Source: Euzebya pacifica
GTDB lineage: Bacteria; Actinomycetota; Nitriliruptoria; Euzebyales; Euzebyaceae
DNA length: 64,000 bases
Direction: 5' to 3'
Assembly: GCF_003344865.1 (NCBI RefSeq)
Contig: NZ_CP031165.1
Span: 1,989,910-2,053,909, forward strand
Position numbers and translations under genes: made by a program. The notes under the pieces are model-generated. The model did no database searches. It was not told the DNA's origin and saw only the letters and a program-made list of their open reading frames with translations. Shown in pieces: positions 11,866-62,499 of the stretch (its first letter is position 1; each line of letters begins with the position of its first letter).

Positions 11866-11889
11866 CCGCAGAACCGGTATCCGGGCCTC

Positions 11890-12016: not shown

Positions 12017-12024
12017 CCGGGGTC

Positions 12025-12534: not shown

Positions 12535-12544
12535 ACAGCAGTCA

Positions 12545-12563
12545 CTCCTGACGTCGTCAGGAG
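12545..12563 (+). terminator. Hairpin after apt
   Basis: CTCCTGAC and GTCAGGAG form a perfect eight-base-pair stem over a three-base loop 10 bases after the apt stop. There is no T-run, so it may be a weak terminator or an mRNA 3'-end stabiliser. Confidence 0.45.
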
Positions 12564-12685
12564 CCGGTCCACGAATTCGGCCGTCGATGTGTGTTGGCAA
12601 CTATCGACGCCGTAGCATCCTCCGTCCCACGGACGTCCTTGCGATGACGACTACAGTCGGTGGTGAGTTTCACCGGCAGGAGGCA

Positions 12686-33142: not shown

Positions 33143-34480
33143 GTGGTGTAGAAGCCCGTGCGCTTGATTCAGTTGGTCACTGCGGGGATTGACGGTATCT
33201 GATCGTCGGAGCGATCGAGGAGGGGTTCGAGGGTGACGGCGGCCATGTAGCGCCGCGGAGCGGCGATCAGTTCTTCGTTGACCTCCACCAGCAACGCGCC
33301 GACGAGCCGGATGACTGATTCGGGGTCGGGGAAGATCTGCACGACATCGGTGCGGCGCTTGAGCTCACGGTTGAGCCGCTCGATCGGATTGTTGGACCAG
33401 ATCTTTGACCAGTGCACGGGTGGGAACGCCGCGTAGGCGAGCAGGTCATCCTCCATCGCCTCAAGCCGCTTGGCCACCTTGGGCGCCACGGTCTCGAGTT
33501 GTTGACAGACGGTGCGGAGCTGGGCGCGTGCGGCATCGCCGTCGGGCTGGGCGAAGATGGTGGAGATCAACGCGCTGATGAGCTGCCGCTGGCTGTGGTT
33601 GGCGACGGCGAGCAGGTTGCGCTTGGCATGCACGCGACATCGTTGCCATCCGGAGCCCTGGAGGACCCGTCGGATCGCGGCGCGCAGGCCGGCGTGGGCG
33701 TCGGAGATCACCAGTTGGACCCCGTTCAGGCCGCGGTCGACGAGGTCGCGGAGGAACTCGGTCCAAAACGTCTCGTTCTCGCTGTTGCCGATGTCGACAC
33801 CGAGGACCTCGCGGTGCCCGTCGGCGCGGACGCCGGTGGCGATCACGACGGCTTTGGAGACGACCTGGCCGTGCTCGCGGACGTGGACGTAGGTGGCGTC
33901 CAGCCAGATGTAGGGGAACGGCTGATGATCAAGCCGGCGGCCTCGAAGGATGGCGACGTCGTCATCGATGAGCTTGCAGATTCGCGACACCGTTGACTTG
34001 GACACGCCCGAGTCGACGCCGAGCGCTTTGACCAGGTCATCGACTTTCCGGGTGGAGGTGCCGGTGATGTAGGCCCGCATGATCACCGCCCACAGCGCCT
34101 TGTCGATCCGGCGGCGTGGCTCGAGCAGCTCAGGGAAGAACGACCCTTTGCGGAGCTTGGGGATGCCGACCTCGACATCACCGGCGGGGGTGGACAGCAG
34201 TTTGGGCCGATGCCCGTTCCGCAGGTTGCTGCGGGCTGGGGTTCGTTCACCGTGGTCGGCGCCGATCTTGGCCGACACCTCGGCCTCGATCAGTTCCTGC
34301 AAGGCGGTGCCGAGGATCTCGGCGATGGACGTGGTGAGCGTCGCGTCGGTCCCGATCAGGGCGTCAGCGAGCTCGGACAGGGCAGACTGGCTATGGGTCA
34401 TCGTGCGTGCCTTCTTTGCGTAGGAGCTTTGGAAGTTCGCACGGTGGCCCGCCTACACGGCGGACCTGCTCCTACACCAC
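33143..34480. mobile_element. IS256-family insertion sequence
   Basis: About 1338 bases containing a single complete transposase gene. The ends are imperfect inverted repeats: GTGGTGTAGAAGCCCGTG at 33143-33160 and, on the reverse strand, GTGGTGTAGGAGCAGGTC at 34480-34463 (14 of 18 match). The eight bases outside each end (CCCGGCCG and GTGGTGAG) do not match, so no target duplication is visible. The transposase is intact, suggesting a recent or still active element. It separates a glycosyltransferase gene from wecB near the left edge of a lower-GC segment. Confidence 0.85.
33169..34401 (-). CDS. IS256-family transposase (mutator type)
   Basis: A 410-residue DDE transposase of the mutator/IS256 group. 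The three acidic catalytic residues lie in PYIWLDATYVHVRE, QLVISDAHAGLRAA and NNPIERLNRELKRRTDV. The conserved GWQRCRVHAKRNLL segment and the N-terminal zinc/helix region (TPARSNLRNGHRPK) are also typical. Full length for the family and no internal stop. It lies inside inverted repeats and fills almost the whole element. Confidence 0.95.
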   Translation of the reverse strand: MTHSQSALSELADALIGTDATLTTSIAEILGTALQELIEAEVSAKIGADHGERTPARSNLRNGHRPKLLSTPAGDVEVGIPKLRKGSFFPELLEPRRRIDKALWAVIMRAYITGTSTRKVDDLVKALGVDSGVSKSTVSRICKLIDDDVAILRGRRLDHQPFPYIWLDATYVHVREHGQVVSKAVVIATGVRADGHREVLGVDIGNSENETFWTEFLRDLVDRGLNGVQLVISDAHAGLRAAIRRVLQGSGWQRCRVHAKRNLLAVANHSQRQLISALISTIFAQPDGDAARAQLRTVCQQLETVAPKVAKRLEAMEDDLLAYAAFPPVHWSKIWSNNPIERLNRELKRRTDVVQIFPDPESVIRLVGALLVEVNEELIAAPRRYMAAVTLEPLLDRSDDQIPSIPAVTN

Positions 34481-34587: not shown

Positions 34588-35706
34588 ATGAAGCTTCTTT
34601 CAGTAGTCGGCGCCCGCCCGCAGTTCATCAAGGCCGCGGTGATTTCTCGTGCCATAGCTGACCTGAACGCCGCCGCTGGCGACAAGGGCCACGTCGCGGA
34701 CGTCATCGTCCACACAGGGCAGCACTACGACACAACGATGTCGCAGGTCTTCTTCGACGAACTCTCGATCCCCGACCCCGTGCACAATCTGGAGGTCTCC
34801 GGAGGAACTCATGGTGAGATGACAGGGCGCATGCTCGAGCGTCTCGAGGCCGTGATCATCGAGGAATCCCCGGACTGGGTGCTCGTGCACGGCGACACGA
34901 ATTCGACCCTGGCCGGAGCCCTGGCGGCCACGAAGTTGCACGTCCCCCTCGCGCACGTGGAGTCCGGGTTGCGGTCCTACAACCGACGCATGCCGGAGGA
35001 AATCAACCGGATCGTCACCGACTCCATCGCCGACCTCCTGTTCGTCCCCACCGAACAGGCGCGCAGCAACCTGCTCTCGGAGGGCGTTCCTGGGGAACGG
35101 ATCATCCCCGTGGGGGACGTCATGTTCGATGCGACCAAGTTCTACGCACCCTTGGCAGAACAGCGGTCCGCAGTGCGCGCCACTCACGGACTGGAGTCCG
35201 GGAACTATGTGCTTGCCACGGTGCATCGGGCCGAGAACACAGACGATCCGGCGCGCCTGAAACAGATCGTGATGGGTCTGTCGCGGTTGTCCGAGGAGAA
35301 TACGGTCGTGCTTCCGCTCCACCCTCGAACCCGACTTGCTCTCGAGGCTGCTGGGCTGCTCGATGACGTGGGCAGTTCCTTGCTGCTCATCGAGCCCGTC
35401 GGGTACCTGGAAATGTTGGACCTCGAGCGAAACGCCCGTGTGATCGCGACGGACTCGGGTGGCGTCCAGAAGGAGGCCTACTTCGCCGGAGTTGGGTGCG
35501 TAACCCTTCGCGACGAGACAGAGTGGGTCGAGCTCGTGGAGGCCGGAGTCAACGTTCTTGCTGGAGCGGACGCTGACAGGATCGTCGCGGCCGCCGAGCA
35601 ACTCCGACAAGTCGACCCCGAACCGGGTCTATATGGCGATGGTCAAGCCGGGGAGAAGGTCGTTTCGGCCCTTGTTGAGGTCACTAGGCAACGGAAACGT
35701 TGCTAG
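34588..35706 (+). CDS. wecB: UDP-N-acetylglucosamine 2-epimerase (non-hydrolysing, WecB/WbpI family)
   Basis: A 372-residue GT-B-fold epimerase that interconverts UDP-GlcNAc and UDP-ManNAc or the corresponding uronic-acid derivatives. Conserved segments are VVGARPQFIKAAVIS, HTGQHYDTTMSQVFF, VHGDTNSTLAGA, HVESGLRSYNRRMPEEINR and the C-terminal ATDSGGVQKEAYFAG. The ATG has GGGAGA upstream. With the aminotransferase, oxidoreductase and dehydrogenase at 60.4-63.8 kb it could complete a diacetamido-mannuronic acid route, but UDP-ManNAc formation alone is equally compatible. It is convergent with the FkbM operon. Confidence 0.94.
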   Translation: MKLLSVVGARPQFIKAAVISRAIADLNAAAGDKGHVADVIVHTGQHYDTTMSQVFFDELSIPDPVHNLEVSGGTHGEMTGRMLERLEAVIIEESPDWVLVHGDTNSTLAGALAATKLHVPLAHVESGLRSYNRRMPEEINRIVTDSIADLLFVPTEQARSNLLSEGVPGERIIPVGDVMFDATKFYAPLAEQRSAVRATHGLESGNYVLATVHRAENTDDPARLKQIVMGLSRLSEENTVVLPLHPRTRLALEAAGLLDDVGSSLLLIEPVGYLEMLDLERNARVIATDSGGVQKEAYFAGVGCVTLRDETEWVELVEAGVNVLAGADADRIVAAAEQLRQVDPEPGLYGDGQAGEKVVSALVEVTRQRKRC

Positions 35707-35823: not shown

Positions 35824-36756
35824 TCAGGGTGCACGAACGAACAACGCGTATCCGTAGTTCGCGAGACTGCCGTCGTTGGCGGTCACCTCGTAGGTCTCCT
35901 TCGTTCGAAGGCCTGCCGATCTCAGGAGCGCGTGTGCCTCCTCGCGGAGGCTGTTGTCGATCTCGATTAGGACACTACGCAGATCACTGTGGGCCAACGT
36001 CCTTTCGGCCCCCTTCAAAACCTCGAGTTCCATGGCATCGACGTCGATTTTCAAGTGATTCGGATTCGGTAGGGTCAGCGATCTGATGAGGTCGTCAAGT
36101 CGGAAGACCGGCATCGGCTGTTCGTACTGTGTGGCCGCGGCCTCCCCGGGCAGGGGTGCGGGAAGACGGTCAGCCATGCCGTGGCCGGCGGCGCCCGCTT
36201 CCAGCACACGGTAGTTGAACGACGAGAGGGAGGTCTTGTCCCCAAGGGCGATGGCCATCGGAACGACAGATGCTTGACAGTCGTTCAGCACAATGTTGCG
36301 ACACAGGGCGGCGAACGTGGCGAACCCTGGTTCGAAGGCGAAGGTAGTGACCTCTCCAGCAGAGGACTTGGCAGCGACGAGTGCATAGGCACCGACGTTC
36401 GCGCCGACGTCGAACAGCACGTCGCCGGGCCGGAGGTACTGCTCGATCCACCGGATCGTCCATGGCTCCCGTGCGGCGGACGCCGCCCGCCAGCGCTCCC
36501 ATTTCGTATCCATTACCAGTTCGATTTCGTGGGCCGAGTAGTCCATTTGCACAGAACGCTGGAGCCGGTCGCGGAGATCGATGGCAAGCGGATCAGGGAG
36601 TTCTGCTGCACGTCGTTCCATCAGATTCACGGATGACTTGTTGGGCACTCGTTGGAGAAGTTGAGCGGCAAGCCGGGCACAGTCTCGGGGCGACATCGAA
36701 GCGATGTCCTCAGGGGTGAGTCGAGGTGATTCGGTCTGGGGCTCCTGAGACGGCAT
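35824..36756 (-). CDS. FkbM-family methyltransferase
   Basis: A 310-residue SAM-dependent O-methyltransferase of the FkbM type, often found in surface-glycan clusters. SAM-binding motifs are LFDVGANVGAYALVAAKS and FAFEPGFATFAALCRN; the family's NHLKIDVDAMELEVLKGAE follows. An N-terminal helical extension of about 90 residues precedes the domain. The ATG at 36756 has GAGGAG seven bases upstream and lies 19 bases after the end of the upstream NodB-like gene. It is the last gene of a minus-strand operon. Codons are richer in A/T endings than in flanking housekeeping genes. Confidence 0.88.
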   Translation of the reverse strand: MPSQEPQTESPRLTPEDIASMSPRDCARLAAQLLQRVPNKSSVNLMERRAAELPDPLAIDLRDRLQRSVQMDYSAHEIELVMDTKWERWRAASAAREPWTIRWIEQYLRPGDVLFDVGANVGAYALVAAKSSAGEVTTFAFEPGFATFAALCRNIVLNDCQASVVPMAIALGDKTSLSSFNYRVLEAGAAGHGMADRLPAPLPGEAAATQYEQPMPVFRLDDLIRSLTLPNPNHLKIDVDAMELEVLKGAERTLAHSDLRSVLIEIDNSLREEAHALLRSAGLRTKETYEVTANDGSLANYGYALFVRAP

Positions 36757-36775
36757 TCGATTTCTCCTCAATAGG

Positions 36776-38641
36776 TCAGAACATGCCGAGCGCAGTGTCC
36801 GCGTTGGGCGAGAGGTCACATGAGAAATCCACGCGGCCACTTGGTAGATGTGTCCGAATAACAACGTCCTTGATGGGCACAGAGGACCGGAGGCCCCGCC
36901 CCGTGAACACGACGGTCCCAGGTGTCCGCAACTCCCGAATTCGCCGCACTACGTCGCCAACCGTCGCGATCCACATTCCCTCCGCGCGTTCGCGCTTCAG
37001 TACCTCCGCCAACAGGCTGGGCTCGATATCGTTGTGGGTGCTAATAATGGCGTGTCCGCCGCGCCCTAGAAGTGACCTGAAGTGATCGATTCGCGCATTG
37101 AAGAACGAGAGGTCGCTATCGGCCGTCGACCCCTCCAACGGAAAGAGAAGGGGAGTCGCGAGCGTCTTTGTCGCCCGTTTCTCCGTGGCGAGCCATACGG
37201 GTCCGGGCACGTCGAGGAGGGCAGTCAGGAGTTCGGCGTGGTCAGCACCGCGACGCTCGGCTTCAGCTAAGTGGCGAGCGCCGAGCCAATAGCGCGATGT
37301 CGGCGCAGAATGGCAGGTGATTCCCATTCCTGCCCGTGCCTCCTCCGGTTCTCGGCAGTGGACTCCGAGTTCCTGGTTGGCCTGCTGAAGGACGGGCAGA
37401 GCACGTGCTTCGTGGTCGAGCCCCGGGATGCAGTACCAAGTAGCAGGGATTGCTCCCAACTCCTCTGACATTGTGTGAAGGAGTCGTGCTACTTGCGTAG
37501 GGCTGGCCGGTCGATCCACGTCAAATCGGATACTCAGGGCCGAGTCGAATCCGGCCGGCCACGGCATCAATTGGACTAGGGGCGCGCCCACCTCAGCGGC
37601 GATTCCAACCAGCGCTTCCAACCACCTATTGAGCACGTCGGACACGCGGAGTTCGTACATGTCGTCTGTCAGTTCGAGCGGCCATCCATCAAGGTCAGGA
37701 GGAGTTAGGAGATCGAGTAGGGCAGGAACCAGGCCAATGTCTGGGCCTGCGAGTGCGGGTGTCGGTCGTGTAATGGAGCGATCAATACGGCGGTCGGGTA
37801 ACAGGGTGGCGCTGTCTGCACCGGACATGATGGCGAGTGCAGCAGCGACGGATGGGTCGTACGCGAACCCCGTGGACTCGACTGTCGCTCGTAGGAGGTT
37901 GGTAGCCGGATCGAAGCGAGGCAAGGCCGTCATCCTTGCGCGGCCTTCTGCCAACGACTCTTCGTGATCAATGAGATCCGCCAAAAGTGTGAGCTGAGCT
38001 AGCCGACCGGACGCGGATACAGCCCGAATCGCCTCGAGCAAATGTTCCTCGACCAAAGGCCGCGCACGTTCAGAATCCACTAGCACGCATCCCCAGAGAA
38101 GTCCTGGGGCCTGGGCGAACGTAGTAGCTTTCAAACGTGCCCGGTCGAACGCCTCGGCGGCCTCGACCATGGCTTGGCTAGCTCCGGCCAAGCGAAAGCA
38201 GGACTGGCCGAAGCTCGTGGCTTCGGGCTCGCCGGCAGCCGTCTGGAGAAGCACGGCAACCTCACGTAAGCCGCGCTGCCGAAGGCAGTGCGCGGCAATT
38301 TGCAGGTCCAGGCGTTCCCGGTCGGTGCGGACTCCACGCTTGGCCAGCCGCTTCTGGGCATAATAGAGGCTCCGCCGGGCTGCAACGGTCAGGTCGCGGC
38401 CGGGTTGCATGGGCGGGGCCACGTGCAGCGTCCCTGATGTGCTATTCGCTGGTCCGGTTGGCAGCCTGAGGTATGGCAGCCCGGGGTCATCGATGCAATC
38501 GGTCAGCACTCCTCGGACGCTGCTAGGTATGGGGGCTCCGGGACGAAGGGCGACGACCTGTGGCAGTCCAAGGTGCGCAAGAAGCAGGTCGCCCCAAGCG
38601 GTGCTGCTGATAATGGCCAACGTCGGCCCGATGTCGGTCAC
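36776..38641 (-). CDS. Large NodB-like protein with unknown N-terminal region
   Basis: A 621-residue protein. The first 350 residues are mostly helical and unrecognised, with a basic AQKRLAKRGVRTDRERL stretch. From about residue 360 a NodB/polysaccharide-deacetylase-like fold begins: MPWPAGFDSALSIRFDVDRP carries the metal-site aspartates (372-377), then LGVHCREPEEARAG and HAIISTHNDIEPSLL. The PWPAG-x-D-x-A-L-x-I-R motif is shared with the 587-residue protein at 42688, so the two are paralogous at least in this half. Likely a metal-dependent deacetylase or a deacetylase-derived sugar-binding protein. The first codon lies within the stop codon of the upstream sulfotransferase. Confidence 0.65.
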   Translation of the reverse strand: MTDIGPTLAIISSTAWGDLLLAHLGLPQVVALRPGAPIPSSVRGVLTDCIDDPGLPYLRLPTGPANSTSGTLHVAPPMQPGRDLTVAARRSLYYAQKRLAKRGVRTDRERLDLQIAAHCLRQRGLREVAVLLQTAAGEPEATSFGQSCFRLAGASQAMVEAAEAFDRARLKATTFAQAPGLLWGCVLVDSERARPLVEEHLLEAIRAVSASGRLAQLTLLADLIDHEESLAEGRARMTALPRFDPATNLLRATVESTGFAYDPSVAAALAIMSGADSATLLPDRRIDRSITRPTPALAGPDIGLVPALLDLLTPPDLDGWPLELTDDMYELRVSDVLNRWLEALVGIAAEVGAPLVQLMPWPAGFDSALSIRFDVDRPASPTQVARLLHTMSEELGAIPATWYCIPGLDHEARALPVLQQANQELGVHCREPEEARAGMGITCHSAPTSRYWLGARHLAEAERRGADHAELLTALLDVPGPVWLATEKRATKTLATPLLFPLEGSTADSDLSFFNARIDHFRSLLGRGGHAIISTHNDIEPSLLAEVLKRERAEGMWIATVGDVVRRIRELRTPGTVVFTGRGLRSSVPIKDVVIRTHLPSGRVDFSCDLSPNADTALGMF

Positions 38642-39570
38642 GAGTAACCCATGCGATGCATCAACTCGCCTGCGATCCGAGCAATGGCCGACGCCTCGTC
38701 TTCCGTCAGTCTTGACTGCCAGCGTCCCACTGAGGAGGTGGTGATGGGTTGATCCAACTGCTGGTGATGGCTGAAGCGGGCCTTGTGCGACATGACGAAG
38801 GCAGAGTCCTGGAAGTCCAATCCTTCGGTCACTGGCAGCTCAAGCCAACCTCCGATTCGGAGCGCCGTGCCAGTCGGATCACTGACGAAGTCTTCGTACC
38901 GGACGACCATGTGGTCCGTAGCGGTGCGTTTGAGCGCATCCATACCCACCCGATAGGTGTTCGCCCACCCCGCAGCGGCCGACTCGACATCCGGGTAGAA
39001 GGGGAGTTGACCTCTGGCCTGCCGCGCTTCGTTCATGGCCAACAAGGAGCTGATTTGATCCCTAGGGTCACGAACCACGAGCAGCACGCGGGCGTTCGGC
39101 CAGACGGCGGAGTAGGTTTCCATATGGACAACGTCTCCGAGGATCTTGAACCCCCAAGTCGTTGCACCAGTCCGATGAGCTGCCGAGCGCATCAGGACGC
39201 TGAGCAACTGACCGCGAGCACGAAGTTCGGGCTCGAAGCGATGCGTCTCTCGGCCAGTGAGCGGTTCAGCAGACACATCTTCAGCGGGGCCAGACCATGC
39301 GCCAAGGTTCATGTCTGTGACGTCCGTCGCTGCGAGCACCTCGTCGTAATCCTGTGCTGGTAGCCCGACCTGCCTCATGATGTTACGGGTGTACCGGCCG
39401 TCCAAGCCTGTGACGAAACTAGGCTTGCGGAGGTGGATCTCGAACGCTTGAAGATGGCCGGGGGTGGACCTCAGCACGCTGGAGATGAGCGTGGTCCCCG
39501 AGCGGGGTTGTCCGGCAACGAGGATGCAAGCGTCAGGTATGCCGGTGTGAATCCGGCTTTTCGCTTCCAT
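38638..39570 (-). CDS. Sulfotransferase-family protein
   Basis: A 310-residue sulfotransferase that would move sulfate from PAPS to a sugar or other acceptor. The 5'-phosphosulfate-binding loop is GQPRSGTTL (residues 20-28) and the 3'-phosphate-binding region is RVLLVVRDPRDQISSLL. A downstream VVRYEDFVSDP segment is also typical. The ATG at 39570 is needed to include the loop, yet it overlaps the preceding gene by 100 bases, an unusually long overlap. The protein ends 4 bases inside the next gene. Sulfated surface glycans are a plausible product. Confidence 0.82.
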   Translation of the reverse strand: MEAKSRIHTGIPDACILVAGQPRSGTTLISSVLRSTPGHLQAFEIHLRKPSFVTGLDGRYTRNIMRQVGLPAQDYDEVLAATDVTDMNLGAWSGPAEDVSAEPLTGRETHRFEPELRARGQLLSVLMRSAAHRTGATTWGFKILGDVVHMETYSAVWPNARVLLVVRDPRDQISSLLAMNEARQARGQLPFYPDVESAAAGWANTYRVGMDALKRTATDHMVVRYEDFVSDPTGTALRIGGWLELPVTEGLDFQDSAFVMSHKARFSHHQQLDQPITTSSVGRWQSRLTEDEASAIARIAGELMHRMGYS

Positions 39571-40316
39571 AGGTTCAAGCCCTTGTTCGGTGAGAAGGGA
39601 TCATTCCCCGAGTACCAGCTGCCGTAGTGGAGCCAGCGAGGGGGCGAGGAGACTGTGGCGGCCGTCTCGATGAGCGTTCGGTGGAGTAACCACATGGTGC
39701 CATCACGCAGCGTCGAGGCATGCCCCATAATCTCTTCGTACTGCACATGTGCAGCCACACGCTTACCGAGCAGGTACGCCGCAAGTCGCCCGTCACGAGC
39801 GAACACGCCGACGCATATGTCGTCGTAATTGGGATCGCCGGTGGGTGCGAACTCGGGAAACTCGTGTGAGGGAGGGCGGGAAGCGAATCGTTCAGCAATG
39901 GCTCGCCCCTGTCGTGTTTCCGACGAGTGAACGATATCATGGATCTCCTGGGCATGGTCTGCGGGGTCTATCCTTCGCGAAGAGTATCCGGCCTTGATGG
40001 CCCGGTTTGCCCGCACCTTGGGCCGATTTCGGGTGGGTTGTTGTTCCACGTATTCTTGAAACGAGTCGGGGACCGGTAGGACCGCGCTCAACAGGATCTT
40101 TGGTGCAGAGGTGGAGCTATCCCGTGGGAGTGCTAGGTATTCCGAATGTCGTTGCGCTGGGTAGGGGGCCGCTCGCCAGTTGATCCAATCTTGTAGCTTC
40201 ATCGCGGCGGTTTCCGTTCTAGGCGGATCCGGGTGCAGAACGACAACGGGGGGTACGCCGAAGGCTTCGAAGTCCTTCGCGATCAACTGTTGTGGATGGA
40301 AGATGCTGTCAGACAT
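39471..40316 (-). CDS. GNAT-like acyl/aminoacyltransferase
   Basis: A 281-residue protein with no strong motif match. It ends with SPNKGLNLWKRKAGFTPAYL, the form seen at the end of GNAT or FemAB-like domains, and has a central GHASTLRDGTMWLLHRTLIETAATV helix-strand. The basic linker NRPKVRANRAIKAGYSSRR suggests an RNA or phosphate contact. A role in adding an acyl or amino-acyl group to a glycan is an inference from context. It overlaps the upstream NodB-like gene by 8 bases and the downstream sulfotransferase by 100 bases. Confidence 0.6.
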   Translation of the reverse strand: MSDSIFHPQQLIAKDFEAFGVPPVVVLHPDPPRTETAAMKLQDWINWRAAPYPAQRHSEYLALPRDSSTSAPKILLSAVLPVPDSFQEYVEQQPTRNRPKVRANRAIKAGYSSRRIDPADHAQEIHDIVHSSETRQGRAIAERFASRPPSHEFPEFAPTGDPNYDDICVGVFARDGRLAAYLLGKRVAAHVQYEEIMGHASTLRDGTMWLLHRTLIETAATVSSPPRWLHYGSWYSGNDPFSPNKGLNLWKRKAGFTPAYLTLASSLPDNPARGPRSSPAC

Positions 40317-41250
40317 AAAACTGAGGGTGCAGCAGGGCCAGAGTGGGTGTGTTCCACAGGCCTATTAGCCGCTCATGGAGGGTTTCCCCGAGTAGTGGAA
40401 GTGCATGGTTGCCTGCGGCAGGCGGTGCTTCGGGATCGGTGGAGATGAACGACCTCGGCGTCGGCACCGACCGAGAACCCGGGGGTTGGTGGTCGGCCAG
40501 AACGTAGCCGTGCGCGGTGCGGGGGTGCACGAGTACCTCGACGGTACCTTCCAGCCCGACCCGGTTGTCCGACACGTAGTTGGTCACCACGAACCCGTGG
40601 TGCTGTGACCACGCAGGCATGTCTACCCAATGTGTGAAGCCGTGCCTCCTCAGTGATACCCGGTTCTCCCGGATGAGGGCTGCCGATGACGGCTGCAGTC
40701 GGCCGAGAACAGGAAAGTCTGGTTGCCGGCCGAGTTCTTTGAATAGATCGAAGGCCGACCCGTAACCGTCCATGTCGGAGTGTCGGTGTGCCGCGTTGCC
40801 GTGAGTGGTCCCAACAGTTAGGTCCAGACCGGCAGCACGCAAACCTTCGAGCTCGTCGCACAGCAGGTCTTCGAGCCGTCGGCCTGACCAGCTAACCCAA
40901 TGGTATGGGTCGACGTGCAGACCGACTTGATGGCCAAGTTCTTGAACCGCGAGCATAGCCTCCACCTGCGCGTCGGCGGAGTAGGACTTACGAGTCAATG
41001 GGTCATCCCGGACCATGAATAGCCATGTAGTAGGGACTTCCATGTCTGCTTCACGACGGGCCAGGTCCACGGCAGACTGAAGTGGGAGGGCATGAACGTC
41101 GTGCTTGAGTAGCCAGCAGGCGCGTCCCTGAATGACATAGTCGTCGAGCATCGAGGCGACCACAAAGTCCGTGCCAGTTCTCTTCAGATCGTCCAGCAGG
41201 CCAAGCAGCCAAGCTTGCCGGTCAGCGGGGGTGTGCTGTTCGGTGATCAT
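40309..41250 (-). CDS. NodB-like protein of the HDVD/HDVH type
   Basis: A 313-residue protein built almost entirely of a NodB-like barrel. Key features are LLKHDVHALP (residues 48-57, metal site), LGHQVGLHVDPYHW with His112, and a GTTHGNAAHRH segment. These correspond in order to RHDVDRLP, GWHVAQLYP and VTVHGNQGNYG in the protein at 42688. Such proteins are found in glycan clusters as putative deacetylases. It lacks a signal peptide, so it probably works on a cytosolic or lipid-linked intermediate. There is a 214-base gap to the upstream methyltransferase gene. Confidence 0.68.
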   Translation of the reverse strand: MITEQHTPADRQAWLLGLLDDLKRTGTDFVVASMLDDYVIQGRACWLLKHDVHALPLQSAVDLARREADMEVPTTWLFMVRDDPLTRKSYSADAQVEAMLAVQELGHQVGLHVDPYHWVSWSGRRLEDLLCDELEGLRAAGLDLTVGTTHGNAAHRHSDMDGYGSAFDLFKELGRQPDFPVLGRLQPSSAALIRENRVSLRRHGFTHWVDMPAWSQHHGFVVTNYVSDNRVGLEGTVEVLVHPRTAHGYVLADHQPPGSRSVPTPRSFISTDPEAPPAAGNHALPLLGETLHERLIGLWNTPTLALLHPQFYV

Positions 41251-41464
41251 TCCAGGATGGCGCGACGATGGGAGGGTTTCGGGGCTGCAGGCTTGCAGGT
41301 CTGCTCACGCTGGGGGAATCGGGCAATGGCACGTGGCCGAGACGCTTGACAGCTACTACGGGAGTTTGGCAACGATGGATTGACAGTATTGTTCACCCAT
41401 GGGGCACCGGCTCTAGGTGTCCCGAGATCAGCATTGAGGGCATGTCCCTGCAGTTGCGTCCCCA

Positions 41465-42658
41465 CTATTGCTTCTGAACCACGCGAAAGAGCGCCTTGTT
41501 GCCCGCGTCTCCCGCGCCCACAACCGATGGAGTGTTCGACGCGTAGCGCTCGATGGATCCGAATCGCTCAAGGAGAGAGTCGAGTTCCTCCACGGTGAAC
41601 ATGATGTCATAGTCGTTGGAACGGCCGCGGAAGGACTCCTGCTGGATGTTCTCGTGAACGATGAGGAGCCCCCCCGGACGGAGTGACTCCCAAGCCCGAC
41701 CCAAGACTTCTCGAGTGTCCGCACGCGGAAGGTACAGGAGTGAGCCCAGCGCAGTTACTACGTCGGTTCCGGTCCAGTCGTAGGCCGACGCGCCGATGTC
41801 GGAGAAGGTGAAGCGGCCAGGTTGGATGCCGACTTGGCCTGCCACCGAGACGCCGAGGGCGCCGTAGTCCAGACGGCGGTCCAGTGCTACCGCGGAAGTC
41901 ACGTCCGCGTCAGGGGCGAGCAGCATCTCCATCGGGACCCACCCAGGGCCCGAGCCGATGTCGACCATGGAGAGGGACTGTCCTCCGTGTCGCTGTCTGA
42001 TGATGTGGGACAACATCCCGGCCTTGTAACCGATGCCCGTGAACCAGTACCGGTGGCTGTGGGAGATAGTGGAGATGTTCGCAGCAGACCAGTTGGGCGA
42101 GCTGATGGGGCGTCGTGATGTCCCGCTGACGATCGACGACAAGTAGTCGTCGGACCCAGAGGCCCTGGCCCTCATACGGGCCTCTTGCAGGATGAGGTGG
42201 CCGTCGTTCTCCAGGTACCACCACAGCAGCGACGCGGGGCTCTGGGGCTCGAGTCCTCCATCGATCCGGACCCATCCGCTCGACAGGCGCTCGACGGGTT
42301 GGCCCAACCACGCCTCGATCGCCTCGATCGTCATCAAGGCGGTGGAGTCGCCGGCTGGAGGACGAAGCCAGACAGAGCCGGAATCCTCGGTCGCCAGAAG
42401 AGCCGAGCACAGCACGCTCTTGGCCCACTCCAGACCTACGAGCCGGAAGGATCGAGTGATCGCCGCGCTCGCCCAACTCGCTCGCAGCGGGCGGTCCAGG
42501 ACCGAACCCGTTTCACCGTTGACCTGCGGCGGTCCTGAAGGAATGGTGTCGAATGCGTGGCCGACGGCAGCCTGCGGCCTGTCGATTCCGATGGCGTCGA
42601 CCACTTGGTCGAGCTCGTAGTCGAGCTTGGAGGCAGTGTTGAGGTACAGACCGAACAA
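41465..42658 (-). CDS. Class I SAM-dependent methyltransferase with N-terminal extension
   Basis: A 397-residue protein. The C-terminal half is a class I methyltransferase with SAM loop SMVDIGSGPGWVPMEML, then ALGSLLYLPRADTREVLG and SLRPGGLLIVHENI. The first 190 residues are unrecognised. The start shown is a TTG at 42658; the assigned ends leave only 29 bases to the divergent gene at 42688, so one of the two starts is probably further inside. First gene of a minus-strand run of six. Substrate unknown; O- or N-methylation of a glycan fits the context. Confidence 0.72.
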   Translation of the reverse strand: MFGLYLNTASKLDYELDQVVDAIGIDRPQAAVGHAFDTIPSGPPQVNGETGSVLDRPLRASWASAAITRSFRLVGLEWAKSVLCSALLATEDSGSVWLRPPAGDSTALMTIEAIEAWLGQPVERLSSGWVRIDGGLEPQSPASLLWWYLENDGHLILQEARMRARASGSDDYLSSIVSGTSRRPISSPNWSAANISTISHSHRYWFTGIGYKAGMLSHIIRQRHGGQSLSMVDIGSGPGWVPMEMLLAPDADVTSAVALDRRLDYGALGVSVAGQVGIQPGRFTFSDIGASAYDWTGTDVVTALGSLLYLPRADTREVLGRAWESLRPGGLLIVHENIQQESFRGRSNDYDIMFTVEELDSLLERFGSIERYASNTPSVVGAGDAGNKALFRVVQKQ

Positions 42659-42687
42659 GGGACTTCCGTGTCACGCAGGTTGACGAA

Positions 42688-44451
42688 ATGGGGGCGCGCA
42701 CTGTACCGCGCTGGCAGGGTCAGGCCATTAGCATCCTCCGGGATGCAGTCTCCACCAACAACCCAGCCGACCGACCTGACGAGCTGCCCGTGAGGGTGCA
42801 CGTGTACACAGGGGAGGACGAGGCGGAAACCCAGCGCTACTCCTGCGGAATCTGGGTCGTCCTGGAGAAGCACGGCTTCCTGGACGTGACGGAGGGCCCA
42901 GTCAGCGGCGCTCCCCAGCGAGAGGGCGCCTGTGCCGTTGTGACTGCCGCCGCCGCATCCAGCATGTCGCTCGCGGCTCTCGCCGTCTTGCGAGCGGCGC
43001 ACCCGGTAGTGGTGGTGGAGGGTCCGTGGTCTTCCGCACTGGCCGACGTCATCGGCACCTGCGGGGAAGTCGTGGCCGCCCGCGGGTCCGTCCGGGTGGA
43101 GGACGAAGCGCTCCGCTCGGAGCTGGAGGGGTGGCTTGTCGGAAGTTGGACGCCTTCGTACAGCGGGGCATCCTCCCGAGAGCTGACCCTCGCAATGACT
43201 CCTCGGGTACAGCGGCCCCACCGCCAGAGCGACGTCGCCGACCCGATGCACGAGGAACTCGTGGGTGCGGTCCCCGCGGACCCGTGGAGCATCCGGGCCA
43301 CGACGCTGCCTGATCATTTCGAAGTCGTGGCGTCTGTCGCTGCCCAACCGCTGGTCGCCGAGGCCCCCGGCCTGGTCTTGCTGCCGCAGCCGCTCCTCTC
43401 CTACATCGTCGAGGACCATTCCGCGCGGGTCCTCCACGACGTGTACGAGTTCTCCAATGACAGGTTCGCCTTCGAGTTGCTGCTCCTGCAAGTCCTCACC
43501 CGTGCGATGACAGGACAGGGAGCGATCGTGGCGCGAATCGCCCCGTGGCCCGCAGGAAAGGACTATGCGCTGACCATCCGCCACGATGTGGATCGGCTGC
43601 CCGACGAGGAGGTCCTCGAATCCGTCCTGCGCCTTGAGGCGCAGTCGGGAGCGGGGGTGTCTGCCTACTTCCAGTCGCGAACCGCGGACGCCATTGTGGT
43701 CGACCGCTTCGCCGAGAACGGGGCCGAGATCGGCTGGCACGTGGCCCAGCTCTACCCAGACGGGGAAGATGAGCTCCGCCAGATAACGGGACTGGGGCAC
43801 GATGTCAGAGGCGTCACAGTCCACGGCAACCAAGGCAACTATGGCTGGAGAGGCCTTCCGAACTGGCGCCGAAGCGAGTTGCTGGGCATGGCGTACTGTG
43901 AAAACTTGGCATCCACCCGATACCTGCCGAGTCGCGCTTTTGACCTCGCTGACGGCCTCGCTGGCGGCCGGGAGATCCTGGTGCTGCCTCACCACCACTC
44001 CCTCGATCGCGGCCTGAACGGCACATACAGAGACGAGATCCTCGCAGCGCTACCGACGTTGTCGGCTCTGGGCGCATACGTCGTGGTCCTCAACCACCCG
44101 GATATCAACGTTACAGAGCTTGGTGAGGTACTCGATGGCATGCCAGAACGGGCTTGGCAGGCAACCTCACGTGCTGTGACCGACTGGTGGACAGCAACGC
44201 ACTACCGGGACAACTTGGTGATGCGGGTCCTCGTCGAGGATGACACGTCCTCGATCCATCTCCAAGGACGAACGGATCTGGAAGGCCTCGTGCTGGAGAT
44301 CGCTGGACGGGTCACCGACGGACCCACGTCGACCTACATGGGGCAACGGCGCTCCCCCATACTGAACGGCGTTGTATCCCGCGTCCGCGTTGATCTCTCG
44401 CCCAACGGCATGGGTGTCGTGCCTTGCGACCCGTGGATGTCAGAACTCTAG
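42688..44451 (+). CDS. Large NodB-like protein, divergent partner of the tailoring operon
   Basis: A 587-residue protein. Residues 1-285 are unrecognised. From IAPWPAGKDYALTIRHDVDR (RHDVDR at 298-303) a NodB-like barrel follows with GAEIGWHVAQLYPDG and VRGVTVHGNQGNYGWRG, then EILVLPHHHSLDRGLNGTY. The last 130 residues form a separate beta-rich domain. A GTG at 42790 is an alternative start with a protein-like N-terminus (VRVHVYTGED). It resembles the 621-residue protein in its second half. Its end overlaps that of the convergent ABC ATPase gene by 4 bases. Confidence 0.65.
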   Translation: MGARTVPRWQGQAISILRDAVSTNNPADRPDELPVRVHVYTGEDEAETQRYSCGIWVVLEKHGFLDVTEGPVSGAPQREGACAVVTAAAASSMSLAALAVLRAAHPVVVVEGPWSSALADVIGTCGEVVAARGSVRVEDEALRSELEGWLVGSWTPSYSGASSRELTLAMTPRVQRPHRQSDVADPMHEELVGAVPADPWSIRATTLPDHFEVVASVAAQPLVAEAPGLVLLPQPLLSYIVEDHSARVLHDVYEFSNDRFAFELLLLQVLTRAMTGQGAIVARIAPWPAGKDYALTIRHDVDRLPDEEVLESVLRLEAQSGAGVSAYFQSRTADAIVVDRFAENGAEIGWHVAQLYPDGEDELRQITGLGHDVRGVTVHGNQGNYGWRGLPNWRRSELLGMAYCENLASTRYLPSRAFDLADGLAGGREILVLPHHHSLDRGLNGTYRDEILAALPTLSALGAYVVVLNHPDINVTELGEVLDGMPERAWQATSRAVTDWWTATHYRDNLVMRVLVEDDTSSIHLQGRTDLEGLVLEIAGRVTDGPTSTYMGQRRSPILNGVVSRVRVDLSPNGMGVVPCDPWMSEL

Positions 44452-45212
44452 CCTCTGTCGGCGGACCACTTCTCGTAGGAACTCACGACGTCGGCCGGGT
44501 CGCCCTCCTCGACGACCCGGCCACCTCTGAACATGACTGCACGGTTGCAGTGATCGCGAACAAGAGACAGATCGTGAGTGACAATCAGTTGTATGGATGC
44601 CCTGCTCAGCATGTCGTGCATGGCTGCTTCGGACTTCTTCTTGAAGGCCAAGTCCCCAACTGAGAAGACCTCGTCGATCAAGACGACGTCCGGCTCCATG
44701 GACAGGACGATGGCAAAGCTGAGCCGCGAGATCATCCCCGACGAGTAGTACTTCATCGGCACATCGATGAACTCCTCGACACCCGCGAACGCCACGATCT
44801 CGGGGACGCGGGACTCGATCTCGGCCGGTTGCATACCGATGAGAAGTCCCGACAGGAGGATGTTGTCGTGACCCGAAAGGTTGTTGTCGAACCCCGTCCC
44901 CAACGACAGGAGGGTCGACAACCGACCGCTCACAGCGACCGTTCCCGCATCAGGTCGATAAATGCCACTGACGGCCCGGAGAAATGTGGTCTTGCCGCTC
45001 CCGTTCGGGCCGATCAGACCGATGATGTCGCCCGACTCCGCTGCCAGGGACACATCCTCCAGTGCGGTGAACAGTTCCGGCGGGTTGCTCCGAATCACTC
45101 GTTTGGCCATCTGGCGCATCCGTCCGGCCGTGGTGAAGGCCTTGTCGTAGCTCAGCCGGAATCGAATTGACAGTCCCTCCACCACGACCTTGGGTTCTTG
45201 GTTGTCGACCAT
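44448..45212 (-). CDS. ABC polysaccharide-export ATPase (Wzt/TagH-like)
   Basis: A 254-residue ATPase that powers export of a lipid-linked polysaccharide. It has Walker A GLIGPNGSGKTTFLRAV, the signature YYSSGMISRLSFAI, Walker B DVVLIDEVFSVGD and the switch histidine in IVTHDLS. FKKKSEAAM after Walker B is typical of polysaccharide and teichoic-acid ATPases. No C-terminal carbohydrate-binding domain is present. ATG 45212 overlaps the permease stop by one base, so the pair is translationally coupled. Confidence 0.92.
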   Translation of the reverse strand: MVDNQEPKVVVEGLSIRFRLSYDKAFTTAGRMRQMAKRVIRSNPPELFTALEDVSLAAESGDIIGLIGPNGSGKTTFLRAVSGIYRPDAGTVAVSGRLSTLLSLGTGFDNNLSGHDNILLSGLLIGMQPAEIESRVPEIVAFAGVEEFIDVPMKYYSSGMISRLSFAIVLSMEPDVVLIDEVFSVGDLAFKKKSEAAMHDMLSRASIQLIVTHDLSLVRDHCNRAVMFRGGRVVEEGDPADVVSSYEKWSADRG

Positions 45213-46006
45213 CAGAACGCCTTGGTGAACTTCGGTTCGGATCTGCCGTACAGGAGGTGGGCGGCCACCAGTGCGACCGCGATCGCTCCGGCGCTGACGA
45301 TCAGGGACAGCCTCGGCGGTGCAGGGGTGCCGAACAGCGCGTGCTGGAGGATCCCGAAGACCGAGGCAACCGGATTCAGAAAGTACACAGTCTGCAGTTT
45401 CTCCGGGACGAAGTCCGTGGGGTAGATAACAGGGCAGGCGTAGAGGAGGAGTCGCAGACCGATGGGGAGTGCGAGTCGCACATCGCGAAGGAAGACGGTC
45501 AACGATGCCGCCGCAAGGGCGCAGGCCCACGCAAGCGTGGCAAGTGCGAGCAACGCGATGACGTACAGTCCCCAATCCGCCTCGCTGGGGTCCCCGCTGA
45601 GCAGGTAGAAGACGAAGAAGGCTCCCACACCCAACAGTCCGTTGGTCATGGTCTCGCGATACGACGCGCCGACGAAGATGATGGGTTCGATTCTGACCTG
45701 AAGGAGCAGTCGTTCCTGGGCGAGGATGGCTCCCGCGCCACCGGTGATGGCTTGGGAGAACATGGTGTAGTGCATGATGCCCGCCACGATGGTGAGAAAG
45801 GCACCACCTCGGTACGACTCTCCCTGTCCGAAGATCACGACGACCAGCAGATAGTAGATAGCAATCTGACTCGTCGGGGTGAGCAGGTGCCACAGGCGTC
45901 CCAGCACTGTCCCCGCGACGCCGGAGCGCCGTCGGCGCGCTGCAAGGAACGCGATCAGCGCACGTCGCTCGCGGATCTCCCTCAGGTCGACGACGAGACT
46001 CTTCAC
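45212..46006 (-). CDS. ABC-2 polysaccharide-export permease (Wzm/TagG-like)
   Basis: A 264-residue ABC-2 permease with six membrane segments and the N-terminal coupling region ending LGRLWHLLTPTSQIAIYYLL. LLLYACPVIYPTDFVPEKLQ and LNPVASVFGILQHALFG are conserved in Wzm/TagG proteins. It partners the ATPase directly downstream to flip a completed, lipid-linked chain. The gene overlaps the upstream glycosyltransferase end by 4 bases. Confidence 0.92.
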   Translation of the reverse strand: MKSLVVDLREIRERRALIAFLAARRRRSGVAGTVLGRLWHLLTPTSQIAIYYLLVVVIFGQGESYRGGAFLTIVAGIMHYTMFSQAITGGAGAILAQERLLLQVRIEPIIFVGASYRETMTNGLLGVGAFFVFYLLSGDPSEADWGLYVIALLALATLAWACALAAASLTVFLRDVRLALPIGLRLLLYACPVIYPTDFVPEKLQTVYFLNPVASVFGILQHALFGTPAPPRLSLIVSAGAIAVALVAAHLLYGRSEPKFTKAF

Positions 46007-47544
46007 GAGGAACCGGCAGTGGTGTATGCCCCCACGTATGAGGGGCTCTCGAGGGAATCATAAAGCGACAGGAGGCGGGCTTCGTACTTGGCCCAGTTGT
46101 CCTGCTCGATGAACTCGGCGGCGTTGCAGCGCATGGTTTCGAGCGCCTCGGGCTTCAGGGCGGCGACCGCGTTGGCGATGCCTTGGGGTGTCGCTGGGTC
46201 ATCGAGAAGTACGCCGATCTCGTTGCCGATGACGATGTCACGGAGGACGGGGTAAGGGCTCGCCAGGATCGGGACACCGGCCGTGGGGTATTCCCAGAGC
46301 TTGTTGGGGGAACAGAACCAATGGTTGAGGCAGACGTTCTCGTAGGGGATGACGCCCAGTGACGCGCCGGCTGTCCACTCGCGAAGTTCGGCGTGTGGGG
46401 CCCCCGGGATGAAACGTACGTGGCGTCGGTCAGGATCGACCTCGTCGGCGATGCGGAGCAGTTCGGGCTCGTAGGACCCCCACCCCATCATCACCAGGGT
46501 CCAATCGGACGGAAGCAATGGCGCCGACCGCACGAGGATGTCGAGGCCTCGAAACCGCGCGAATCCGCCTTGGTAGAGAAGGATCTGTTGCCCGTCCGGC
46601 ACGTTGGCGGCGGCCCGGAGTCGACCGTCGTCGCGTGGGGGCCCCTCTGGACGCAGCACCGCATTGCAGATCACAGACCCCGAGGGCAGCTTCGGATAGC
46701 GAGCACGCAAGTAGTCGTGGATGGAATCGTTCACCGTGACGAAGGCATCCACCTGTCCGCTGACTCGTCGCTGCATTGCACGGAACCGTCGCCGCCGCCA
46801 GTCCGTCATCTGGCTTACTTCCTCGTAGATCTCGTGGGCGTCGTAGACCAGCATGGCGTTTGTCGCCCGCTTGACCCTGATGCCGACAGGCACTGTGATC
46901 AGGTCATGGCAGTGCACGACATCCGGTCCCCACGAGGACACGGCTGACTGAAGTTCTCGTTCGAGCGCTACCCGACCGAAGCGCCTCGCGAGCCAGACCC
47001 TAGCGGTCTTCCATACCCGCCCGAGCCAGCCACGCCTGCGGGTGAGTCGGCGTCGTACACCGGCGACCACTCGTCGGTGGTGCCAGCGAGGAAGCGTGGA
47101 GTTGGACGCGGGCAACGGGTGCCCACCAGCGCTCTCGACGATAGCCGCACTTCGAGAGAACCCCTCGGCCGCGGCGAATCCCAAGCGAGCCACGGCAAGG
47201 CCCGCCAAGGCCAGGACGAGGGCTGCGCTGAGAGGGGTGACGAGCCACTCGATGGCCCTGGCCGTGGCCCCGCCCAATGCGAGGGCCGCAGCGAGGAGAG
47301 GTACGCACAATGCCAGCGTCGTAGTCCGCAGGAATCGAGCAAGCGCTCGGAAGGACTTCGCTTTCCAGTCCACACGTACGATCCGGACGCCCGAGTCCCG
47401 GATGGTCTCCGGCGTGTTGTCGCGGTTGTCGCGGATCCCGAAAATCGTGACTTCGTACCCAGCGTACGCAAGGCTGTCGGCCTCCTTGAGCACCCGGGCA
47501 TCTCTGGATACCGAGTTCAGGACGACTGCGGCAACCTTGGGCAT
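46003..47544 (-). CDS. GT4-like glycosyltransferase with inserted membrane hairpin
   Basis: A 513-residue GT-B enzyme. The N-terminus KVAAVVLNSVSRDARVLKEA and VHCHDLITVPVGIRV with LVYDAHEIYEEVSQ are acceptor-domain motifs. The donor domain has LLYQGGFARFRGLDILV and NHWFCSPNKLWEYPTAGVP. Unusually, residues about 75-125 contain two hydrophobic segments and residues 135-190 a very basic loop, inserted into the first Rossmann domain. This should tether the enzyme to the membrane, suiting a lipid-linked substrate. It is followed at once by the export genes. Confidence 0.85.
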   Translation of the reverse strand: MPKVAAVVLNSVSRDARVLKEADSLAYAGYEVTIFGIRDNRDNTPETIRDSGVRIVRVDWKAKSFRALARFLRTTTLALCVPLLAAALALGGATARAIEWLVTPLSAALVLALAGLAVARLGFAAAEGFSRSAAIVESAGGHPLPASNSTLPRWHHRRVVAGVRRRLTRRRGWLGRVWKTARVWLARRFGRVALERELQSAVSSWGPDVVHCHDLITVPVGIRVKRATNAMLVYDAHEIYEEVSQMTDWRRRRFRAMQRRVSGQVDAFVTVNDSIHDYLRARYPKLPSGSVICNAVLRPEGPPRDDGRLRAAANVPDGQQILLYQGGFARFRGLDILVRSAPLLPSDWTLVMMGWGSYEPELLRIADEVDPDRRHVRFIPGAPHAELREWTAGASLGVIPYENVCLNHWFCSPNKLWEYPTAGVPILASPYPVLRDIVIGNEIGVLLDDPATPQGIANAVAALKPEALETMRCNAAEFIEQDNWAKYEARLLSLYDSLESPSYVGAYTTAGSS

Positions 47545-53634: not shown

Positions 53635-54693
53635 ATGACTCTTCGACGGGTGTTCGTGCCTGTGTTCGTGCTGGCCCTGGTGTTGCTGGCGATGCCGCCG
53701 GCGGTGAGCGGGGATCCCATTGCCCGACAAGGACCTTCCGACGACGAGAGTCGCGGTCTCGGGAACGCCGACGCCGAGCAGTCGGACTCCCAACCGCAGA
53801 CGTCGCGCTTCGATGATCCTGCGTTTGCGGACCAGCAGATCCTCGACGACCTCATCGTCGATGGCAGCGCGTGCGTGGGTCTGGACTGTGTGAACGGTGA
53901 GTCCTTTGGCTTCGACACCATCCGACTGAAGGAGAACAACCTCCGGATCCGTGCCTTCGACACCTCCAGTACGGCGTCGTTCCCCACTGTGGACTGGGAG
54001 ATCATGTTCAACGAGTCCTCCAACGGTGGGGCCAACGTCTTCGCAATCAATGACTTGGATGCCGGTCGCCGTCCGTTCTCCATCGAAGCTTCGGCTCCGT
54101 CCAACTCGCTCTACGTCGACGACGGCGGTCGCATCGGCTTGGGCACCAACACGCCAGTCACCGAGATCCACGTCAAGGACGGCGACAGCCCAACCCTTCG
54201 TCTGGAGCAGGACGGGACCAGTGGGTTCACGCCACAGACCTGGGACGTGGCAGGCAACGAGACCAACTTCTTCATCCGAGATGCAACGAACGGCTCCAAG
54301 CTTCCGTTCCGCATCCGTCCCAACGCCCCGAGCAACTCCATCTTCGTGGACACCGACGGCGATATCGGACTGGGCACGAGTTCGCCGGCCAGTCAGCTGG
54401 ACATTGTCCGTGCCGGGAACGTGGAATTCAGGCTTGCTAACACCACCTCAGGGGAGACTTGGAAGGTGTTCACGCGGCCTGTAGGTGACTCTTCCGAGGG
54501 AATCGTAATCTCGCGGGATTTGTCAGGTGAGCAGGAGTTGCGAATCACTCCGACCGGTGCCCTGGTGATCCCGGATGCTCCGATCCCGACTGTCGCTGCT
54601 GGCACGATCTACTTCGACGGCAACACCTTCTGCGGCTACGACGGCACCGCTTGGCGTCCCCTTCAGGCCGCCGGCGACCAGACCTGCAACTAG
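53635..54693 (+). CDS. Secreted tail-fibre-like beta-repeat protein
   Basis: A 352-residue protein with a signal peptide (VFVLALVLLAMPPAVSG). It contains repeated strands DDGGRIGLGTNTPVTEIHV and DTDGDIGLGTSSPASQLDI, a pattern common in phage tail fibres and S74-type surface proteins, with FFIRDATNGSKLPFRI and SNSIFVD between. The C-terminus (TIYFDGNTFCGYDGTAW) carries two cysteines. No chaperone domain is recognised. ATG 53635 has GAGGG upstream. It may be a trimeric surface fibre. The giant CWB2 protein gene follows 85 bases later. Confidence 0.7.
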   Translation: MTLRRVFVPVFVLALVLLAMPPAVSGDPIARQGPSDDESRGLGNADAEQSDSQPQTSRFDDPAFADQQILDDLIVDGSACVGLDCVNGESFGFDTIRLKENNLRIRAFDTSSTASFPTVDWEIMFNESSNGGANVFAINDLDAGRRPFSIEASAPSNSLYVDDGGRIGLGTNTPVTEIHVKDGDSPTLRLEQDGTSGFTPQTWDVAGNETNFFIRDATNGSKLPFRIRPNAPSNSIFVDTDGDIGLGTSSPASQLDIVRAGNVEFRLANTTSGETWKVFTRPVGDSSEGIVISRDLSGEQELRITPTGALVIPDAPIPTVAAGTIYFDGNTFCGYDGTAWRPLQAAGDQTCN

Positions 54694-54778
54694 GGCAGGG
54701 CGGCTGACCATGCCGCGGGATCGCCGCCACCTGGCACGCGGGGCGCGTGCCACCACCCTTGTCGGAGGGGAACCGAAC

Positions 54779-60429: not shown

Positions 60430-60435
60430 TATGGT
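60430..60435 (+). promoter_or_regulatory. Candidate -10 box of the aminotransferase operon
   Basis: TATGGT lies 10 bases before the ATG at 60446 and no ribosome-binding site is present, another leaderless-type arrangement. It would start the three-gene nucleotide-sugar operon. Confidence 0.4.
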
Positions 60436-60445
60436 GGGCGATCGC

Positions 60446-62492: not shown

Positions 62493-62499
62493 CGAAGTC

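Follow-up and report, generated by a model that had tools for sequence, protein, structure and literature searches.

A probable glycan-tailoring and export cassette with NodB-fold proteins and a sulfotransferase in Euzebya pacifica

Within a 64,000-nucleotide stretch of the Euzebya pacifica genome (contig NZ_CP031165.1, positions 1,989,910 to 2,053,909; this whole stretch is referred to here as the window), seven open reading frames (ORFs), of which six lie on the minus strand and one diverges from them, had been described in an original prediction as a glycan-tailoring cassette with three NodB-like proteins. We find these ORFs at the coordinates and on the strands given there, with the likely amendment, judged from the sequence, that the FkbM-family methyltransferase gene would start at 36756 instead of 36864, whereby its overlap with the gene for the 621-residue protein disappears. 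The conserved unit runs beyond 44451 and takes in a Wzm/Wzt ABC exporter as well as a glycosyltransferase (GT), ending at 47544 (Table 1). Its probable role is to deacetylate a sugar chain destined for the cell surface and to sulfate and methylate that chain prior to export.

Table 1. Genes of the cassette and the adjoining epimerase gene, with their positions in the window
Gene product	Position	Strand	Basis or remark
wecB-type UDP-GlcNAc 2-epimerase (makes an acetamido sugar nucleotide)	34588..35706	+	PF02350 E 3e-109; neighbour, may supply the substrate sugar
FkbM-family methyltransferase	35824..36756	-	PF05050 E 2e-11, TIGR01444 2e-24; ORF open to 36864
N621, predicted NodB/CE4 fold (~residues 355-575) with mostly helical N-terminal region, motif RFDVDR	36776..38641	-	alignment of 6 relatives, model, fold search, hhalign
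ST, PAPS-type sulfotransferase, motifs QPRSGT and RDPRD	38638..39570	-	PF13469 1.4e-22
G281, conserved protein, GNAT-like by eye only, candidate N-acyltransferase	39471..40316	-	47% identical homologue in a Rhodobiaceae genome
N313, compact NodB-like protein, motifs KHDVH, GLH, THGN, LLHP	40309..41250	-	hhalign to N587 family, Rhodobiaceae homologue
MT397, class I methyltransferase (S-adenosylmethionine) with N-terminal extension	41465..42658	-	7-member alignment; weak Pfam match alone
N587, predicted N-terminal ThuA/GATase-like Rossmann domain (~33-280) and NodB/CE4 domain (~285-507), motif RHDVDR	42688..44451	+	alignment, AlphaFold2 model, VIA
Wzt-like ABC transporter ATPase, without C-terminal extension	44448..45215	-	PF00005 4e-18; start approximate
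Wzm-like ABC-2 permease	45212..46006	-	PF01061 9e-10
GT513, GT4-type glycosyltransferase, conserved core	46003..47544	-	PF13692/PF13579

The assignments of the FkbM methyltransferase and of the sulfotransferase (ST) stand, as both score above curated cut-offs, and the two motifs of ST that bind 3'-phosphoadenosine-5'-phosphosulfate (PAPS) are kept in a homologue from the Rhodobiaceae. MT397 by itself falls below the Pfam cut-off (PF08242, 8e-4); that it is a class I methyltransferase, as had been claimed, is borne out by motifs for S-adenosylmethionine (SAM; D-x-G-x-G-x-G and PGG..EN) which are invariant in a seven-member alignment. Neither Pfam nor NCBIfam gave a meaningful family match for the 621-, 281-, 313- and 587-residue proteins (N621, G281, N313 and N587). 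Searched by phmmer, N587 and N621 had no sequence match in the PDB and N313 had chance-like matches only. Profile searches of the PDB, made with G281 and N313, likewise gave chance-like hits, and the ‘GNAT-like’ label given to G281 is backed by no Pfam or NCBIfam profile and by no convincing PDB profile match. An N-terminal hydrophobic segment is seen in none of the seven proteins, in agreement with the stated lack of signal peptides. The adjacent Wzt and Wzm proteins scored above cut-off for PF00005 and PF01061, as an export ATPase and an ABC-2 permease would; for Wzt the highest-ranking NCBIfam models are those of galactan and teichoic acid export ATPases, yet below their equivalog cut-offs. 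A role in defence finds no support, PADLOC yielding just a weak mad2 match for MT397; in PHROGs the only match, again of MT397, was a weak one to a tRNA-methyltransferase.

The folds of the NodB-like proteins were assessed with AlphaFold2 (AF2) models of N587 and N621, Foldseek searches against PDB chains (E <= 0.001), VIA alignment and hhalign profile comparison. Foldseek returned 31 chains for N587, with polysaccharide deacetylases leading, and in this model the predicted local distance difference test (pLDDT) score exceeds 90 where the CE4 core begins. For both proteins the best VIA match is the CE4 deacetylase 3rxz (Z 19.1, 2.8 Å and 212 residues aligned for N587; Z 13.3, 3.6 Å and 195 residues for the CE4 domain of N621). 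None of N621, N313 and N587 of the window matched PF01522 at E up to 1; two of the seven N587-family members match it directly (best E 1.4e-5), and profile comparison with PF01522-positive proteins gave 95% (E 3.5e-8) for N587 and 9%, below significance, for N621. The N587 profile's weak PDB matches (E 0.02-0.95) almost all bear the name of a polysaccharide, peptidoglycan or chitin deacetylase. Between the window's own proteins, hhalign connects N621 with N587 at 99.7% (E 2e-26) and N313 with the N587 family at 93.6% (E 2e-7), so the NodB-like claim holds for N587 and N621 through their best model matches and for N313 through the profile link only.

The two large N-terminal regions, which the original prediction could not name and had treated alike, prove to differ in kind. 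With moderate confidence, that of N587 is modelled as a ThuA/GATase-like Rossmann domain: residues ~33-280 taken alone matched ThuA-like and GH42-type chains (Z ~12.7), and the span covering this region and the CE4 domain aligned over 354 residues with PelA (Z 14.4, 5.5 Å) and also with human N-deacetylase/N-sulfotransferase 1 (NDST1; 348-368 residues, Z 13.3, ~8 Å), all by VIA. That of N621 (~350 residues) is mostly helical with low pLDDT; it matched only TPR/OGT-like helical chains with poor TM-score, and we place no interpretation on it.

An HDVD-type metal site had been read in all three proteins, and this proved correct for N587 only, N621 having RFDVDR (mostly RYDVDR in its relatives) and N313 having KHDVH (KHDIH in its homologue). 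The sequence PWPAG-x-D-x-A-L-x-I-R is indeed common to both large proteins; written as a degenerate DNA pattern, it is found at two places in the window but in 0 of 100 shuffles. Alignment of six N621 sequences shows D374, D376, H428, H444, H536 and D538 to be invariant, and among seven N587 sequences the same is true of D300, D302, H351, H379, H436, H470 and D472. By analogy D300 of N587 would be the catalytic base, D302, H351 and perhaps H379 would be metal ligands, and H470 would be the motif-5 acid. The canonical motif 1 TFDDG, together with a motif 2 H(S/T)xxH that holds two metal histidines, is found in none of N621, N587 and N313.

Single-sequence searches with N587 and N313 in 120-300 related genomes, and tblastn of N313, N587 and N621 in plasmids, gave no close relative outside the window, and the family was opened only by a scan with a DNA pattern made from W-P-x-G-x3-A-L-x-I-R-x-D-V-D, the motif common to both large proteins. 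The pattern marked 17 stretches in ~85,000 species genomes; among the 396 genomes scanned from the window's phylum it occurred in no other, and a scan of viral contigs gave nothing. Three of the 17 stretches encode N621 relatives, namely L008 (from a metagenome-assembled genome, MAG, of the Planctomycetaceae), L015 (Phycisphaerales MAG) and L018 (Rhodobiaceae MAG). L009, L013 and L020 were rejected as ordinary PF01522 proteins by Pfam, and the remainder as what by eye are more distant deacetylase-like ORFs. Profile searches added three genomes (G527, G548 and G656), all of the same class as the first planctomycete, returned only the match already known among 289 alphaproteobacteria and, with the N621 profile, found the window alone in 246 genomes of its phylum. 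Whether the genes co-occur elsewhere was the first test that the original prediction had set itself, and the gene set is found in six other genomes of the Planctomycetota and Alphaproteobacteria, a recurrence in other phyla that excludes a chance neighbourhood.

Comparison of the related loci (L008 and L029, Planctomycetaceae MAG; L030, Phycisphaerales genome G424; L032, Rhodobiaceae genome G425; L038, L039 and L040 from G656, G527 and G548, respectively) divides the cassette into a core module of N621, MT397, N587, Wzt, Wzm and GT513 and an inserted module of ST, G281 and N313. In L008/L029 the order N621(-) MT397(-) N587(+) Wzt(-) Wzm(-) GT(-) is that of the window minus the ST-G281-N313 block and FkbM, and in L038 the core runs in the opposite direction, two additional ORFs separating Wzt from N587. 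The remaining planctomycete loci are less regular: L030 is rearranged (Wzt-Wzm-N587, plus N621 and MT397), as is L039, which comprises an N621 fused to a hexapeptide (LbH) domain, N587, MT397, a third NodB-like protein, Wzm, Wzt, an 810-residue protein and a PF03567 sulfotransferase, and L040 holds two MT397 homologues, a NodB-like protein, sulfotransferases and a GT. An MT397 homologue is present in five of five planctomycete loci, Wzt (47-56% identical) and Wzm (34-38%) in four, and GT513 (43-63% over aligned segments) in three. The Rhodobiaceae locus L032 has an LbH-fused N621 followed by ST (46%), G281 (47%) and N313 (39%) homologues in the order of the window. FkbM has no homologue in the related loci, which makes it a local addition outside the conserved core, and a 54%-identical fragment of wecB adjoins N621 in L039.

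Several features of these loci are recorded in their own right. In L030 (2169-4523, minus strand) an N587 homologue and a class I methyltransferase domain form one 785-residue protein, and N621 homologues with an N-terminal LbH acyltransferase domain occur in two phyla (L018 5660-7999, plus strand; L039 168-2798, minus strand). Small secreted proteins, mutually 53-75% identical, adjoin N621 or MT397 in planctomycetes (L029 349-1002, minus; L030 9126-9653, plus; L038 9885-10493, plus), two of them with PEP-CTERM- or MYXO-CTERM-like ends, and could possibly be a surface partner of the glycan.

The cassette is apparently rare and mobile. Its genes have a GC content at third codon positions (GC3) of 0.65-0.79, whereas the window's housekeeping genes reach ~0.92-0.95, and a gene caller that took its codon-usage model from the window rejected or barely accepted several cassette genes. 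This low GC3, combined with the lack of N621 in any other of the 246 genomes of the phylum, points to horizontal transfer, and since ST, G281, N313 and N621 have the lowest GC3 they may have arrived separately. An IS256-family transposase (33169-34401; ~57% identical to IS1245-like elements) lies between glycan genes and may mark an insertion boundary. The same transposase and the low GC3 could also be taken to mean that unrelated glycan genes were gathered fortuitously by the IS256 element, which we consider highly improbable and reject on synteny, as these genes recur in that order in unrelated genomes.

A direct connection between sulfation and the NodB-like proteins comes from G548, where a single protein of 505 residues combines a sulfotransferase (PF13469, 3.9e-24) with an N313-homologous domain (BLAST 1.2e-6, hidden Markov model 4e-7) that retains HDID, GLH, AHG and LIHPGNY; beside it lies a paralogue whose motifs are degraded. 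This fusion, together with the ST-G281-N313 block in two phyla, suggests that the deacetylase-like step and the sulfotransferase step share one substrate. Such a fusion was seen in L040 only; in the cassette of the window the two kinds of domain lie on separate proteins, N587 having no sulfotransferase domain. L040 also encodes (11710-13740, minus strand) a 677-residue protein with an N313-like and a radical SAM domain, beside two sulfotransferase/NodB-like proteins.

The same evidence can be carried further, to a coupling like that of NDST in which N313 and/or N587 would de-N-acetylate a hexosamine and ST would sulfate the freed amine, giving an N-sulfated, heparan-like glycan. The alignment of the Rossmann-like and CE4 parts of N587 with NDST1 and PelA, the fusion of ST to an N313-like domain and the shared ST-N313 block speak in its favor. 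We regard this sharper proposal as doubtful, given that the ~8 Å root-mean-square deviation (rmsd) to NDST1 over the full span implies a different arrangement of domains or a partly unspecific match, and that O-sulfation is commoner in bacteria (e.g. by NodH and NoeE on Nod factors). There is nonetheless a chemical precedent for N-sulfation in the sulfated exopolysaccharide (EPS) of the marine bacterium Pontiella, measured as 75-80% N-sulfated (PMC7356697). The cassette may be a bacterial equivalent of the animal enzymes for heparan sulfate modification; that it is in full a split bacterial N-deacetylase/N-sulfotransferase, whose NodB-fold enzymes (one of them NDST/PelA-like) expose amines on a lipid-linked glycan for N-sulfation by a dedicated ST, with an ABC exporter releasing the heparan-like polymer and the whole spreading horizontally among Actinomycetota, Planctomycetota and Alphaproteobacteria, we consider rather unlikely.

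Our preferred reading, to which we give a probability of roughly two in three, is broader, namely that this is a horizontally acquired, two-module cassette for the cytosolic tailoring and ABC export of an amino-sugar glycan. Tailoring in the cytosol before export is indicated by the lack of signal peptides and by the conserved, adjoining Wzm/Wzt exporter, and a glycan with acetamido sugars is most likely because wecB lies next to the tailoring genes both here and in L039. From gene content, conservation, synteny, the predicted folds of N587 and N621, the profile link of N313 and the fusion in G548 we infer the catalytic activities, the order of the steps, the substrate and the position of sulfate on N or O. 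A lipid-linked chain with acetamido sugars would be assembled in the cytosol, N587 and N621 would remove N-acetyl (or O-acetyl) groups at a putative Asp/His metal site, and the NodB-like N313, which may share in the deacetylation, would ready a position on the same glycan for sulfation by ST. MT397, and locally FkbM, would methylate the glycan, G281 would possibly acylate a free amine, and Wzm/Wzt would export the finished product. From the original prediction of cytosolic tailoring this reading keeps the co-occurrence, the NodB-like fold and the cytosolic setting, and gives up the three HDVD sites, the GNAT identity and the place of FkbM in the core.

Several observations weigh against our reading. 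Mean pLDDT of the N587 and N621 models is just 58-59, and G281 has no fold assignment after the Pfam, NCBIfam and PDB profile searches. Motif 2 has a single conserved His, with the canonical second metal His absent in all three types, and in N313 the second, metal-binding Asp is replaced by H53 (HDxH), so that some of these proteins may be inactive or perform other chemistry. The ST-G281-N313 block is joined with the ABC core in the window only, and the Rhodobiaceae locus shows no homologue of the window's Wzm/Wzt within the 32 kb examined. Those same departures from the canonical HxxxH and the HDxH of N313, along with two N313-like copies in L040 whose motifs are clearly degenerate and the existence of CE4 pseudoenzymes such as BA3943 (by entry titles), would fit a cassette that only sulfates and methylates, in which N621, N587 and N313 have the NodB fold but no catalytic role and serve, for example, in glycan binding or length control. 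We find this unlikely, as relatives of N587 and N621 from different phyla show no variation in the Asp-x-Asp, the motif-2 His, a third His or the C-terminal H-x-D, which would be unexpected without catalysis.

The gene set also recalls the logic of rhizobial Nod factors, with NodB-like deacetylation, N-acylation by G281, O-sulfation by ST, methylation by MT397 and FkbM, and ABC-2 export, that is, nodB-A-S-H-IJ applied to another glycan. Like the NDST-type coupling, this is a sharper form of our preferred reading and overlaps with it. The matching activities and exporter agree with this analogy, as do a weak NoeE match of ST and NodI-model matches of the ATPase (both far below cut-off) and the LbH domains fused to N621 in L018 and L039, which suggest that acyl transfer accompanies the family. 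In Pfam and NCBIfam searches of the cassette proteins there was no match to NodA or NodC, and G281 is without a fold match; we accordingly hold the analogy to be possible and advance it tentatively.

Set against known systems, the cassette of the preferred reading, a two-module tailoring and export unit, shares parts with several. With CE4/NodB enzymes (PF01522; 3rxz, 1z7a, PuuE 3cl6, HP0310 3qbu) it has in common the fold, the Asp-x-Asp of motif 1, a GHEIxLH-type motif 2 and a C-terminal xHP motif, but its proteins miss PF01522, carry a conserved G-x-T-x-H His in place of the second motif-2 His, have different N-terminal partner regions and no signal peptide and, in N313, show HDxH. The Nod factor genes nodA-B-C-S-H-I-J likewise encode a cytosolic deacetylase, methyl- and sulfotransferases and an ABC-2 exporter, possibly matched by an acyltransferase here, but belong to different protein families and include NodC and NodA, which have no match in the cassette. 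Wzm/Wzt clusters for O-antigen or capsule (e.g. WbdD-terminated O9a) share the permease, the ATPase, a GT4 core and modification before export, but the window's Wzt is without their C-terminal binding extension and its tailoring set consists of CE4-type proteins, a methyltransferase and ST in place of the WbdD kinase-methyltransferase. PelA is similarly a multi-domain protein with a deacetylase, aligning with 354 residues of N587, but has no sulfotransferase, works outside the cytosol and has further domains. In NDST1 a Rossmann-like N-terminal domain precedes the deacetylase domain (PMC10864358), as in the model of N587, and a sulfotransferase is encoded close by in the window and fused to a NodB-like domain in a related locus. 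Unlike NDST1, the window has separate proteins and an ABC exporter, the fit over the full span is loose (rmsd ~8 Å), and the sulfate may sit on N or on O. The Pontiella cluster for a sulfated, glycosaminoglycan-like EPS is again from a marine bacterium and combines a sulfotransferase and a methyltransferase, with the N-sulfated product measured there, but its legend names no deacetylase gene (PMC7356697); the comparison made here is one of described gene content.

Tailoring of glycans before ABC export is already known, and it is the protein families and their combination that are without description in the literature searched; in that literature, whose coverage excludes subscription papers, we found no description of a deacetylase and sulfotransferase cassette of this kind. 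The multi-domain NodB-fold proteins N587 and N621 and the accessory proteins N313 and G281, all without a Pfam or NCBIfam entry, travel with ST, a methyltransferase and an exporter across phyla and so define a testable glycan-tailoring system. Glycosaminoglycan sulfotransferases were stated by the Pontiella authors not to be known from prokaryotes (PMC7356697), and expression of active NDST in bacteria is a stated bottleneck in heparin-type synthesis (PMC13353177). If the sulfate is placed on nitrogen, these proteins would be bacterial enzymes for N-sulfated glycans such as that of Pontiella and candidate tools for heparin-type synthesis.

Other features of the window and of more distant genomes are noted here for completeness. 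Beside the glycan genes, an ORF at 48337-50262 resembles a vanadium haloperoxidase in that it matches DUF6851, the VCPO second domain and PAP2; its N-terminus is hydrophobic. A very long ORF of 1915 residues spans 54575-60322, followed at 60431-63801 by ORFs that by eye resemble sugar-nucleotide genes. Finally, a more distant cluster in the class of G548 (L055, 630-12795) contains a sulfotransferase-like ORF, a 674-residue HDVD protein, and GT513-like and PglC-like genes.

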